64,000 bases of DNA, taken from positions 1 through 64,000 of the forward strand of contig JAGYPA010000011.1 in assembly GCA_018399255.1 (NCBI GenBank), read 5' to 3'. The notes below the pieces were generated by a model. That model was not told where the DNA came from. It worked only from the letters and a program-made list of their open reading frames with translations, and did not search any database. Position 1 is the stretch's first letter. Every line of letters starts with the position of its first letter. Shown piece by piece: positions 6,571-13,617 of this stretch. Both the position numbers and the translations under genes were made by a program. Origin of the DNA: Spirochaetales bacterium (lineage in GTDB: Bacteria; Spirochaetota; Spirochaetia; JABMQR01).

Positions 6571-6744
6571 CCCAGGGCAAGCCCTGGACCTAGGAGGCTT
6601 CGCCTCCTTTGCCGCCCCAAGGGGCGGGGTTTGTTACTAAGGCAAGTGGAAACTTGCCCGCGATCCCAGCACGGCCAATTCGCAGAATTGGCTTGTCGGG
6701 AATGGAACCATCTAAATGGTTCCGCTCCTCTCGCTTCGTTTGGG
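6571..6744 (-). repeat. Hairpin-array element, copy 1
   Basis: A 174-bp member of a family with copies at 8267 and 12078. On the minus strand it runs from CCCAAACGAAGCGAGAGGAG to CCAGGGCTTGCCCTGGG. In between are conserved blocks separated by perfect small hairpins: GGAACCAT/ATGGTTCC, CCAATTC/GAATTGG, GGCAAGT/ACTTGCC, GGAGGC-TTC-GCCTCC and CCAGGGC/GCCCTGG. Stem sequences differ from the other copies but remain paired. It lies between the dead permease pair and the 3' end of the intact permease. Confidence 0.8.
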
Positions 6745-6882
6745 AATCATGTGCAATCTGGAAAAAGCCCAGCAAGTATTAACCTGTTTTGGTTAAACAA
6801 TTAGTTATAATGCTTTGGACCATAACCTCCTCATTCATGTCAGCAGCATAATATTGCGTGTATCGTGTACTTTTCCAAACTC

Positions 6883-8067
6883 CTACACAATGGTTCCGAA
6901 TACCCAACCGGCCGTAGTTGAAAGAATAACCACAAGAAAGACATATACGGCAGTTTTCTTGAAGCCTAACTCACCACCGATAACCAGCATGGAAGGCAGT
7001 GACAAGGAAGGTCCGGCCAGCAGCAGGGCTAAAGCCGGTCCCTGGCCCATACCTGCACCGAGGAGACCTTGAACAATGGGTATTTCCGTAAGGGTAGCAA
7101 AATACATAAACGCACCCGAAATGGCAGCAAAAAAATTAGCAAAAAGCGAATTTCCCCCCACCAAACTCTCAACCCATCGAGTTGGGATTAACGCCTCATG
7201 CCCGGGTCGACCGAGTAAAAAACCCGCTGCAAGCACACCGCCAAACAGCAAAGGAAGGATCTGCAGCGCAAAATCTCTGGTAGCCCCTCCCCATTCAACC
7301 AGGTCATCTTTTGTAAACCAGCGAATGAGGGCATAGAGCAGCATCAGAGCGAATGCGCCGGTAATCCAGTACTTCGCCCGATGGATAAAATCCCATAACG
7401 AGCTTGCGCCGCTGGAGGGAGCCCAATTGAGAAAAACCAGAATACCGATCATGGAAAGCATGAACAGGAGCATCTGTCCTAAAGATCTCGCCTCTGGTCC
7501 GCCCATATTCTGGAATAGCCGCTCATCTGCAAGGCGCTTTTCATCTTCATTATGGAAAACAGCCTGCATAGTGAAACCAATAACAAAGGCAAATACAATC
7601 GAGACTATCATGCGGGTGGCACCAAGCTGCCATCCAAAGACCTTATAGGAAAGCACTATCGCGAGAATATTTACAGCAGGCCCGGAGTAGAGGAAGGCTG
7701 CAGCGGGACCTAACCCGGCTCCCTTTTTATAAATACCCTTGAACAGAGGCAGAACCGTGCATGAGCATACAGCAAGGATTGCTCCGGATACGGAAGCTAC
7801 CGAGTAGGCAACAATCTTATTTGCCTTGGGCCCCAAATACTTCATCACTGCCTGCTGATTGAGGAACACGACGATAGCCCCGGCTATGAACATAGCCGGG
7901 ACCACGCATAACAGCACATGTTCGTGGGCGTAGTCGGCAAGCATAAGAAATGCTTCTTGTATGGCTCCTGCTACCCGCGGATGGGTAAACGGAATAAAGA
8001 AAACCGCCAGGAATATTCCTGCAACAACCAGCAGCTTCTTGTTCGGTGTAAACTCTTTGGCTGCCAT
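6883..8067 (-). CDS. YraQ/ArsP-type permease
   Basis: A 394-residue membrane protein of the ArsP_1/DUF318 family. It has ten or so hydrophobic segments arranged as two similar halves around a charged cytoplasmic loop (~residues 175-200). The hallmark CSC motif is present in ILAVCSCTVLPLF (Cys101 and Cys103), followed by GIYKKGAGLGPA and AFLYSGPAVN. Characterised ArsP members export trivalent organoarsenicals; others with the same motif have unknown metal or thiol-related substrates. It ends a minus-strand operon: thioredoxin-like protein, DGC protein, then this gene 4 bp after the DGC stop. An ArsR-family gene is divergently transcribed upstream. The substrate is inferred to be a thiophilic metal or metalloid. 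Confidence 0.85.
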   Translation of the reverse strand: MAAKEFTPNKKLLVVAGIFLAVFFIPFTHPRVAGAIQEAFLMLADYAHEHVLLCVVPAMFIAGAIVVFLNQQAVMKYLGPKANKIVAYSVASVSGAILAVCSCTVLPLFKGIYKKGAGLGPAAAFLYSGPAVNILAIVLSYKVFGWQLGATRMIVSIVFAFVIGFTMQAVFHNEDEKRLADERLFQNMGGPEARSLGQMLLFMLSMIGILVFLNWAPSSGASSLWDFIHRAKYWITGAFALMLLYALIRWFTKDDLVEWGGATRDFALQILPLLFGGVLAAGFLLGRPGHEALIPTRWVESLVGGNSLFANFFAAISGAFMYFATLTEIPIVQGLLGAGMGQGPALALLLAGPSLSLPSMLVIGGELGFKKTAVYVFLVVILSTTAGWVFGTIV

Positions 8068-8071
8068 TACT

Positions 8072-8590
8072 TCACATCCTTTGAGCGATTTGAACTGCTA
8101 CATCAGCAATAAGCTCTTGTGTTATGGAAGTCTTCCCTTTGGCTACCCCAAATTCTGTGGTAATGAAATGATCGAAACTCAATCCCTTTTCCTGAAATAT
8201 TTTTGCTCCGCAGGCAACAGGACATCCATCGATAACAATATTTTTGTCAGCATTCTTAGCCGAGACAATGAAAGGTATCAATACCCCAGGGCAAGCCCTG
8301 GACCCGAGGCACTTCGTGCCTCCGTTCCGCCCCAAGGGGCGGGGTATCTCAACCTTGCGATCCCGGCACTCGCTCGGGAATGGAACCAACAAGTTGGTTC
8401 CGCTCCTCTCGCTTCGTTTGGGAATAAACCCGGACAAATCGGCTCCCACCGCGGCAAGGCAAGTCATAGATCCAAATCCGACTGAGGCTAACTTTCTAGC
8501 TGCCTGATCGGCGAGATTTCCGGTGTTTGCTGCCCCCGAACAAGCATATACCAAATTTACTTTGCGATCACTGCCGCATGCACACCCCAT
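8072..8590 (-). CDS. DGC-domain protein with a 52-codon in-frame repeat insertion
   Basis: A predicted zinc-binding protein of the DGC family, named for its Asp-Gly-Cys motif and conserved cysteines. It has MGCACGS at the start, YACSGAANTG (~15-24), MTCLAAVGADLSGF (~42-55) and IDGCPVACGAKIFQ (~119-132). Between GFI and VSAK lie 52 residues (~57-108) that have no place in the family. They are encoded by copy 2 of the hairpin-array repeat, read without a stop. Without them the protein would be 120 residues, normal for DGC proteins. The start overlaps the thioredoxin stop by one base, and the stop is 4 bp from the permease start. Function is unknown; co-occurrence with YraQ permeases and ArsR suggests metal handling. 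Whether the long form folds is open. Confidence 0.8.
   Translation of the reverse strand: MGCACGSDRKVNLVYACSGAANTGNLADQAARKLASVGFGSMTCLAAVGADLSGFIPKRSERSGTNLLVPFPSECRDRKVEIPRPLGRNGGTKCLGSRACPGVLIPFIVSAKNADKNIVIDGCPVACGAKIFQEKGLSFDHFITTEFGVAKGKTSITQELIADVAVQIAQRM
8267..8422 (-). repeat. Hairpin-array element, copy 2, inside a gene
   Basis: Exactly 156 bp (52 codons) inserted in the DGC-domain gene. It shares with copy 3 both the CCCAAACGAAGCGAGAGGAG end and the GATACCTTTCATT end. Hairpins seen are GGAACCAAC/GTTGGTTCC, GAGGCAC-TTC-GTGCCTC and CCAGGGC/GCCCTGG. The insert is flanked by an ATT triplet on each side. The reading frame used by the gene is open throughout, and two frames on the other strand are open too. 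Confidence 0.85.
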
Positions 8591-8829
8591 TACTTACCTC
8601 CCTGAATGTATGAAAGAATCTGATCTTTGTTGAGAATTTTCCCCGCCATCTTGACCTCTCCGTCAATAGCGAGCGCTGGAGTCATCATGACACCCATTTC
8701 CATGATTTTGTCAATTTCTGTCACCTTTTCTATGGCGGCGTCAATCCCTCCGATTTCGATAGCTTTTCTTGCATTAGCCTCGAGGGCTTTGCACTTTGGA
8801 CACCCGGTACCAAGAATTTGAATTACCAT
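8590..8829 (-). CDS. Thioredoxin-like redox protein (Thioredoxin_3/TM0996 type)
   Basis: A 79-residue small thioredoxin-fold protein. The N-terminal strand leads into the CPKC active site (Cys10, Cys13) of the form GTGCPKCKAL. The cis-proline stretch MMTPALAIDGEVKMAGK follows in the second half, and the C-terminus is a short helix. Members of this family (redox-active disulfide protein 2) are commonly encoded next to YraQ permeases and ArsR regulators. It is the first gene of the minus-strand operon, with AAGGAG upstream of its ATG. It probably supplies or relays thiol redox equivalents for the permease, which carries its own CSC motif. That link is inference. Confidence 0.88.
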   Translation of the reverse strand: MVIQILGTGCPKCKALEANARKAIEIGGIDAAIEKVTEIDKIMEMGVMMTPALAIDGEVKMAGKILNKDQILSYIQGGK

Positions 8830-11047: not shown

Positions 11048-11908
11048 GCCCGCCGGGCGCTCAGAAGCGGTGGAAATTGGATTTCCGGTGGAAATTGGAT
11101 TTCTAAAGAAATTGGATTTCCCAAAAGTATAGAGATGAAGGTCGGAGAAATTTCAAAAACCAATTTCCAGGAATACGAAGTACTTTGAAATTGTATCATA
11201 TCTTTTTGAAATTCCGACTTTCAACCATGTTTCTTACTATTCAGAGAAGTTCCCGGAAGTGAAAATCTGTCATGCCTGCCAGGAGTGCAAAGGAGCCCGG
11301 TAAAGGCCGGCGGATAGGACGAAAAAACCGGTTAAGCTCGACTGATTTTACTCATGTCCCACGAGGAGCCGGAACGAGGCAAACAGGTTTTTTCAGGGTA
11401 AGGAGCTGCTGAGAGGGGTCTGAAACCCTTAAGCCGGGCTTAAAACACACGAGTCCCACGAGTAGGAGGGGTCGGAATTTTGCAATGGTCGCCGACCGAC
11501 AAAACGTATATCATAACGAGCAAACGCATACCCAGAAAGGGCAAATAGGCTGATCGAATGCCGGCACCAGGGGGGCAGCCGCTGCTCGTGGGACTCGTGT
11601 ATATTAAGCCGACCTTAACCATTTTCCAGGAGTGGATGTAGGTCATTACGTAAAAAGCACTTACACGCTGCCGAATTTCCAGTCGTGGAACTTATGTAAA
11701 GTCAGCCGGACTTAAGTGCCCGCCGGGCGCGCAGAAGCGGTGGAAATTGGATTTCTAAAGAAATTGGATTTCCGGTGGAAATCGTAGATTTCCTCTTTCT
11801 TATTTGGAAATCGTAGATTTCCTTTTTGGGAAATCCAATTTCCTCCCTATTCTCTGGGAAATCGAAGATTTCCTTTTTGAGAAATCCGATTTCCCATCTA
11901 TCCGCAGC
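11048..11908. repeat. Non-coding structured repeat, unit A plus partial restart
   Basis: A ~670-bp unit (11048-11717) beginning GCCCGCCGGGCGC followed by CAGAAGCGGTGGAAATTGG, then restarting at 11718 with the same opening. A diverged second copy lies at 12952. It contains arrays of GAAATC-N-GATTTC palindromes (11068-11120 and 11738-11908). It also contains a long-range stem, ACACGAGTCCCACGAG at 11447-11462 pairing perfectly with CTCGTGGGACTCGTGT at 11585-11600, around a 122-nt loop. No convincing gene is present on either strand. Confidence 0.7.
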
Positions 11909-12068: not shown

Positions 12069-12364
12069 GGGTTTATTCCCAAACGAAGCGAGAGGAGCGG
12101 AACCAACTTGTTGGTTCCATTCCCGAGCGAGTGCCGGGATCGTGGGGTAAGCTTCGCTAACCCGGGGGCAAGCTTTCGCTAACCCGGGGCAAGCTTCGCT
12201 TGCCCTTTGAGATACCGCCGCAGAGTACTGCAGTTACCCCTTGGGGCGGAACGGAGGCACGAAGTGCCTCGGGTCCCAAGCATTCCCTTCGGGAATGCCG
12301 CTTTCCGTAGGTAAGCCGCTTGCCTAAGGTCAAGTTCTTGACCCGGGTTTTGATACCTTTCATT
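12069..12364 (+). repeat. Hairpin-array element, copy 3, expanded
   Basis: The longest copy (~295 bp), opposite in orientation to copies 1 and 2. It has the same outer blocks (CCCAAACGAAGCGAGAGGAG, GGAACCAAC/GTTGGTTCC, GAGGCACGAAGTGCCTC, TTGATACCTTTCATT) plus extra hairpins: GGGGTAAGCTTCGCTAACCC, GGCAAGCTTCGCTTGCC, GCATTCCCTTCGGGAATGC and GGTCAAGTTCTTGACC. The loop is nearly always TTC or GAA. It appears inserted next to the 3' part of an ISL3 transposase relic. Confidence 0.8.
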
Positions 12365-12951: not shown

Positions 12952-13617
12952 GCTCGGCGGGCGTTTCAGAAGGGTGGAAATCAGATTTCTAAGGGAAACT
13001 GATTTCCTCCTTCTTTGGGAAATCCTGCCGCGACTGCAAAGGGGAGGGCAGGATTTCAAGGGTTTGGTAGGTTGCACAGAGGCTACGATTGAAAAAAGAA
13101 GGCAATAAAAGCAGCCGACAAAGAGAAACCCGGTTAAGTCCGCTCATTATACACATGTCGCACGAGTAGCCGGAAGGAAGCAAATAAGGTTTTGTGCAGG
13201 GTAAGGAGCCGCTGAGAGGGTTCATTAAAACCTTAAGCCTGGCTCAATATACACGTGTCCCACGAGTAGGAGGGGGCGGAATTTTGCAAGGGACAGGGGC
13301 AAATAAACTATATCTTAAAACGTGCGTACACACGTTTATACACTAAAGTCCAGCTACCGGAGGGAGAGCATCATGGGATCGCATGTTGCTCGTGTGGACA
13401 CGTATATTGAGCCTATCTTAGCGATTTTTCAGGCTTGTCAGATAAAAGGTCCCTATGAAGTAAGAACTTACTGACTGTAAAATTTCTACTCGTGTGATAT
13501 GTGTAAAGTGAGGCTGCCTTAAGCGCTCGGCGGGCGTCACAAAGTATGAAATGGATTTCTAAAGAAATCCAAGATTTCCATCGGAAATCCGATTTCCATC
13601 GGAAATCCGATTTCCTC
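12952..13617. repeat. Non-coding structured repeat, unit B plus partial restart
   Basis: A diverged copy of unit A. The opening GCTCGGCGGGCG recurs at 12952 and again at 13525. Matching internal blocks include GGTTAAG followed by CATGT and CGCACGAGTAGCCGGAA, CAGGGTAAGGAGC and GTAGGAGGGGGCGGAATTTTG. GGAAATC/GATTTCC palindromes occur at both ends. The long-range stem is kept as 13243-13266 pairing with 13389-13411 around a loop of 122 nt, the same length as in unit A, with substitutions in both arms. It lies inside the interruption of the ISL3 relic. Confidence 0.7.

Follow-up and report, generated by a model that had tools for sequence, protein, structure and literature searches.

Small hairpin elements occur widely among bacteria, many of them without a known mover; non-autonomous forms of the IS200/IS605 insertion sequences are known as palindrome-associated transposable elements. 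In PMC4227781 IS200/IS605 elements are characterised by a T-rich pentanucleotide target, the absence of target duplication and of terminal inverted repeats, and subterminal palindromes, and PMC8612924 ascribes the same features to ISDra2, with TTGAT as target. Nearly half of the Rickettsia palindromic elements (RPE) are reported as fusions within open reading frames (PMC10969869). REPs, also treated in PMC12306157, measure 20–40 bp according to PMC3733652. Here we analyse a hairpin array from the genome of a Spirochaetales bacterium, in which a stretch of 64,000 nucleotides, the window, carries one copy inside a gene for a DGC-domain protein.

The insert in the DGC gene

The insertion in the DGC gene is a real in-frame copy of a class-wide spirochaete hairpin element. 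The original prediction had placed a 156-bp repeat at 8267–8422, the same 156 bp as in Table 1 but one base off, and had described it as in frame, a multiple of three in length and open. This is borne out by the reading frame 8072–8590, which runs across the insert without stop or frameshift. The Pfam model DGC (PF08859) covers the protein by two separate segments (E 6.3e-23) with the insert between them, and the clean gap expected against orthologues is there: a single gap of 52 residues at the insert, residues 55–106 of the window protein, in all four aligned homologues, namely that of G005 (L217; 82% identity), L151 (72%), L145 (59%) and L161 (56%). These four agree at 47 positions, 46 of which are retained in the window protein, the sole change being D to E. 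Compared with the G005 gene, pN is 0.105 and pS 0.767, a divergence that may largely predate the insertion and says little on the time since. A solved structure of a DGC protein was sought in order to place the insert, the best match reaching only E 0.29.

The gene had also been held to be coupled to its neighbours by overlaps. This is correct on the thioredoxin-like side, where the overlap is one base (TAATG), but not on the ArsP-type side, where four bases separate the genes; the DGC gene is therefore not overlap-coupled on both sides. L145 (G000:C64:1165-1473) is a second, uninterrupted DGC gene of the same genome and is likewise followed by an ArsP-like gene.

Table 1. Positions in the window of the DGC gene, its insert and related features
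Feature	Position	Strand	Basis
DGC-domain protein gene, 172 aa, insert in frame	8072–8590	−	ORF, Pfam, homologue alignment
Hairpin-array element within the DGC gene, 156 bp inserted, ATGAAAGGTATC...CGTTTGGGA	8268–8423	+	Repeat copies; gap in homologues
Target bases owned by the DGC gene, TTTAT on the minus strand	8424–8428	−	Element-end comparison, empty site
ArsP-type permease gene, downstream of the DGC gene (context)	6883–8067	−	ORF, Pfam
Thioredoxin-like gene, upstream of the DGC gene (context)	8590–8829	−	ORF, Pfam
Domain 1: P1 8272–8276/8352–8356; P2 8281–8287/8341–8347; hairpins 8288–8299, 8306–8322, 8329–8340	8272–8356		Fold, covariation
Domain 2: closing stem 8361–8364/8420–8423, covarying across copies; long hairpin 8381–8402	8361–8423		Covariation
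Second full copy, 287 bp, extra hairpins	12077–12363	−	Repeat comparison
Third, divergent copy, 70% identity; 3′ end intact, canonical 5′ end missing	6571–6747	+	BLAST

Anatomy, dispersal and target of the element

The ends of the element are constant and enclose a series of hairpins of varying number. In the common form the stems AAGGT/ACCTT and ATACCCC/GGGGTAT of domain 1 enclose three hairpins, and the stem TTCCC/GGGAA of domain 2, which terminates the element, encloses a long hairpin. The closing stem of domain 2 is not formed in the single-sequence DNA fold of the window copy. As a whole this copy folds better than shuffled sequences, with z scores of −4.1 (plus strand) and −4.7 (minus strand) for RNA and −4.5 for DNA. 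Direct reading of the ends revealed no terminal inverted repeats, the element is too short to house a transposase gene, and truncated copies have lost either end. A search with nhmmer over 307 loci (262 hits, 153 full) left 92 non-redundant full copies with inserted lengths of 141–212 bp. This set omits partial hits and some full copies found by end motif, such as the expanded second copy of the window and L028 (314 bp) and a short copy in G075 (87 bp), and over all copies seen the inserted length is 87–314 bp.

Both further copies originally listed for the window, at 6571 and 12069, exist, the latter as the longer form with extra hairpins and the former without the canonical 5′ end (Table 1). 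A search of the rest of the genome and of relatives, the check proposed with the prediction, extended this considerably. The genome (4.4 Mb, 246 contigs) holds 48 BLAST pieces of the insert. The 5′ motif AATGAAAGGTATC has 40 exact matches in it as against one for a reversed-pattern control and the 3′ motif CGTTTGRGAATVA has 41 as against none, some of the matches that were read proving not to be elements (5′: L126, L129, L130, L134; 3′: L138, L144). All four genomes examined of the same family contain the element, and a 30-base exact match among named relatives found two Spirochaetia MAGs with 5 stretches. From 39 copies we derived a covariance model, by which at most ten candidates were scored per genome; among 297 genomes sampled from the class it matched 27, in 14 of 112 genera and nine families, the weakest being doubtful (G049, E 1.5e-5). 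In a sample of the phylum 8 of 392 genomes had matches, all in the same class, the sample not being broken down by class; two of them were new (G493 and the doubtful G500, E 9.6e-5). Viral contigs, searched with one exact pattern, and phage and plasmid records, searched by BLAST, gave no element match. Nor was a description of the element found in the literature, where subscription journals were thinly covered, by searches that included two exact DNA and two exact peptide strings.

Copies within the genome G287 are up to 99.4% alike, and on this similarity the element shows signs of recent activity. Copies at several places in the genus of the window (L016, L025, L125) have common flanks, ggacttga before and gagagaaatgcccg after, so some copies spread through duplication of a larger segment. 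The window also contains clusters of short palindromes, GGAAATC...GATTTCC, at 11777–11901, similar ones appearing in translation in L032, and a pair of 106-bp repeats near the element (11423–11528 and 13227–13332) that are 75% identical.

The element stands directly 3′ of TTBAT on one strand, which in the window is the minus strand. The target was tallied over 91 copies, one of the 92 being dropped for its short flank. It has T at −5 in 0.69 and at −4 in 0.97, a base other than A at −3 in 0.99, and then AT, this AT and for some copies the V-A behind it (other strand) having been part of the search motifs. TTTAT, TTCAT or TTGAT account for 59 copies and other NTBAT for 28, with 4 fitting neither. 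The element itself terminates in TTCAT in 79 of the 91 copies, and the +1 base beyond it is T in 86%. When only AAT was required, in a search of the family of the window, V-A was present in 31 of 32 rows, the exception being L058.

Two pairs of empty and filled sites define the insertion further. Two tnpA genes of G287, 96% identical, are filled (L197) and empty (L296), and the sequence there is TTTAT at the target but TTTCAT at the element, hence no target duplication. The gene for an ABC-transporter ATPase in G296 has 147 bp between CACCAGGGG and ATGAAGAAG, flanks that are adjacent in G287. Neither pair shows a target-site duplication, and these two empty sites place the AT in the target although it was part of the search motif. 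Tandem copies with one common target occur in L188 (period 153 bp) and L027. The head-to-tail array of L188 (1306–1768, G206:C92) runs, at the 153-bp period, to three complete copies plus the beginning of a fourth and lies within an open frame of 301 codons. GC skew in the element's orientation has a mean of −0.017 (t-test p 0.036, Wilcoxon 0.063, sign test 0.24; 88 non-independent copies); a slightly negative local skew is the direction expected of lagging-strand insertion, in what is a weak test of strand bias.

Candidate movers

The element is probably a non-autonomous mobile element of IS200/IS605-type architecture, moved in trans by a Y1 transposase. It is from this architecture that we infer the Y1 step and single-strand transposition. 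A Y1 (HUH) enzyme encoded elsewhere in the cell would bind the hairpins as single-stranded DNA, cut after both TTBAT-like sites and paste the excised strand 3′ of another TTBAT. The copy in the DGC gene would by chance have been 156 bp long and stop-free in the gene's frame, and for this reason the frame would have survived. Selection against broken genes would spare such rare in-frame copies, likewise in the ABC-transporter ATPase gene of another family of the class.

A search of 14 element-bearing genomes for PF01797 turned up Y1 genes in 8. The model had no match in the other six; five of these are 64–87% complete, and the sixth, G094, counts against the Y1 reading, being 99% complete and having copies without PF01797. 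The preference for T at +1 (0.86) also counts against it, as it is unexpected if specificity sits on the 5′ side only. An autonomous element with the same ends was sought by pairing the end motifs in stretches of four genomes and was not found, nor did any Y1 locus examined hold an insertion sequence with the element's ends. Since there is neither a transposase gene nor a same-ended Y1 insertion sequence, we say that the element works like IS200/IS605 rather than that it is a proven member.

Within 22 loci scanned (20 Y1 loci and the overlapping L032 and L007; limit E 1), full copies occurred at G287:C4, an IS200-type locus, and at G000:C184. The RAYT-like gene of G000:C207 is accompanied by a weak fragment (E 0.098), and the remaining loci have none. 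In G287 the IS200-type gene and an element copy share one rloB gene, and by our reading the right-end junction of the IS200 is also TTCAT. The labels OppD-type, IS91-type, IS605 and DprA-like are presumptive readings of the sequences, Pfam having supplied family names only.

No copy with a transposase of its own was found; in each of the two long ones encountered a hairpin is occupied by IS110-type DNA. IS110-type insertions lie in the same GCCCC/GGGGC hairpin in two species, at L025 9933–11751 (G000:C183) and L125 (G001:C10:5236-6941), the type having been called by Transposase_20 (Pfam) in C183 and by eye in G001. That the same hairpin was hit in two species suggests that an IS110-type insertion sequence targets it.

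A RAYT-like (REP-associated) Y1 transposase could take the place of an IS200/IS605 TnpA and move the element in the manner of an oversized REPIN. Six of the eight genomes with a strong match to a RAYT alignment (A2; E 2.3e-53 or better) bear the element, a proportion to be read with the fact that A2 was itself built from three of these six. In the genome of the window, moreover, the fragment at C207 (L032) adjoins the RAYT-like gene, and the full copy at C184 lies about 1.1 kb from the Y1 match (L301). We nevertheless consider such a mover decidedly unlikely. At E 1e-10 A2 matches 10 of the 27 element genomes, while 44 of 54 A2-positive genomes (among 297) have no match to the element model; the NCBIfam RAYT model stays below its cut-off (58–62 of 80 bits, three genes); and the element is far longer than the REPs described in PMC3733652. 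As sole mover a RAYT is rejected on these genome counts. In three genomes, drawn from two families, what we read as a dprA gene is directly followed by a RAYT-like Y1 gene (L302, L299, L293), as if kept vertically, and no copy is nearby. A second alternative, that the element acts as RNA, be it a retrotransposed RNA, a self-removing intron or a HEARO/IscB-type guide RNA, would be in keeping with its multibranched, covarying fold. In an alignment of 39 copies (A1) 90.5% of cells pair as against 82.8% in shuffles, and cells changed on both sides number 131, where shuffles give 42 and slid partners no more than 35, counts that are inflated by related copies; further pair types (48 as against 46.8 in shuffles) are not in excess. 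G-U cells exceed A-C cells (123 vs 62) if two near-fixed G-U pairs are counted, but without these they are 60 vs 62 (21 vs 22 pairs), so that the wobble count gives a one-strand RNA no support in the latter form and leaves it open in the former. No Rfam family reached its gathering score over a copy in the window. Permissive Rfam searches of 6 and 7 copy-bearing loci yielded a tRNA in a flank, rsmX and two microRNA-type hits below threshold; the G075 copy itself drew a single GEBRO hit at 21.8 of 284.7 bits (E 0.013). A flank of the element had resembled what we take to be an IscB-type motif; a HEARO/IscB guide RNA was rejected, as these searches gave no such match, and retrotransposition with 5′ truncation was rejected because both ends are truncated among copies. 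We hold an RNA-level element to be extremely improbable. We lean to hairpins that act as DNA, or to hairpin-templated correction of mutations, the G-U count alone leaving RNA possible.

Copies inside genes and comparison with known systems

Pfam supports eight in-gene copies; three of them leave the frame of the gene intact and open, and the other five break it. The open ones are the DGC copy, with Pfam on both sides of its 156 bp, a 147-bp copy that adds 49 residues to the ABC-transporter ATPase of G296, which we take to be of OppD type (ABC_tran 1–79 and 80–136, both sides), and an 87-bp copy in a Y2_Tnp transposase of G075 (Pfam on one side only). In a BrxB gene of the genome of the window 155 bp cause a frameshift (profile 2–57 and 62–124, both sides). 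Copies of 154 bp bring stops into Fic and RloB of G287 and HATPase_c_4 of G087, and one into the Y1 tnpA of G287:C47 (E 1.2e-4), of which an empty copy is known; Pfam matches these four on one side only. Candidates without Pfam support, such as an open 147-bp copy in a possible lipoprotein leader of G222, were left out of the count. A copy taken at random and read in an arbitrary frame has a probability of 0.16 of being open and in frame; three such cases among eight lie within chance (P = 0.12), so a special coding mechanism is not indicated.

At the level of all copies, 40, 21 and 11 of the 85 testable ones lie in frames open for at least 30, 45 and 60 codons on both sides. For random points at the same loci, drawn unevenly across them with the 64-kb window contributing many, the figures are 2484, 2056 and 1683 of 3112. 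With 64 of 85 outside long open frames (45-codon criterion) and five of eight in-gene copies breaking the frame, the survival of in-frame copies is in line with chance and selection: in genes of importance only harmless copies persist.

The original prediction had likened the insert to RPE, in which selfish palindromic DNA survives within genes. The likeness holds in that the element is dispersed, palindromic, evidently selfish and in frame in the DGC gene and the ABC-transporter ATPase, but not as a general habit, since 21 of the 85 testable copies interrupt a long open frame, whereas 2056 of the 3112 points drawn at random do. A coding palindrome in the full RPE sense, with genes as its main habitat and a peptide of about 50 residues that is useful or harmless, would account for the three open copies and for the ATPase. 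There the empty G287 orthologue is 100% identical on one side of the insert and 98% on the other, and the filled gene compares with it at pN 0.006 and pS 0.134 (31 synonymous and 5 nonsynonymous changes, a crude count), which makes the ATPase, by comparison of the genes, what appears to be the best and cleaner in-frame case. We judge this account very improbable all the same, since most copies lie outside long open frames, the in-frame count is within chance and the element is read in different frames in its hosts, on the minus strand in DGC and on the plus strand in the ATPase. For the DGC gene itself the copy may instead have inactivated the protein, leaving a pseudogene in decay, its open frame a matter of chance. 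The intact DGC and ArsP-type genes at C64 and the chance of an open, in-frame copy given above would agree with such decay, but the absence of stop or frameshift, the near-complete retention of invariant positions and the low pN relative to pS, for what a perhaps largely pre-insertion divergence can tell, speak against it, and we regard it as unlikely. The long DGC protein is likely made and working.

We put forward, tentatively, a wider reading: the element may represent a new family, spread across the class, of hairpin arrays that transpose as single strands and keep their ends fixed while whole hairpins are gained or swapped, and it may independently have given rise to coding palindromes outside the Rickettsiales that add about 50 residues to the DGC protein and the ABC-transporter ATPase without loss of function. 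The element has a sharp target and clean empty sites, one of which lies in an orthologue of near-identical sequence; it shows signs of recent activity, and two of its natural in-frame insertions into proteins have uninterrupted homologues. On this footing one can test by which enzyme such elements are moved and how commonly selfish hairpin DNA ends up in a working protein.

Like IS200/IS605 elements, the hairpin array inserts 3′ of a T-rich pentanucleotide without duplication, lacks terminal inverted repeats and has subterminal palindromes. Unlike them, it has no transposase gene and no partner insertion sequence with the same ends was found; its hairpins fill the element and vary in number, and there is the extra preference for T at +1. 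With REP/REPIN and RAYT systems it shares hairpins, a possible mobilisation in trans by a Y1-type enzyme and the presence of RAYT-like genes in some genomes. It differs in being far larger (87–314 bp), oriented and two-domain with a fixed target, in its absence from the three dprA-linked RAYT-like genes, and in lying within the scanned Y1 loci, as copy or fragment, only at C207, C184 and G287:C4.

With RPE it has in common a length of about 150 bp, palindromic structure, dispersal and some copies in frame within genes. It belongs to another phylum, has a defined TTBAT target and a variable number of hairpins, and several of its in-gene copies are disruptive; it is set apart on descriptions of RPE, not on their sequence. 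The frequent in-frame presence in open reading frames that marks RPE is not seen here, only a minority of copies lying in long open frames and three of the eight in-gene copies with Pfam support being open. The element resembles RPE in outcome rather than habit, and the two look like different elements. Finally, the variable count of internal modules is shared with BOX and other modular bacterial repeats, from which the element seems to differ in host and sequence.
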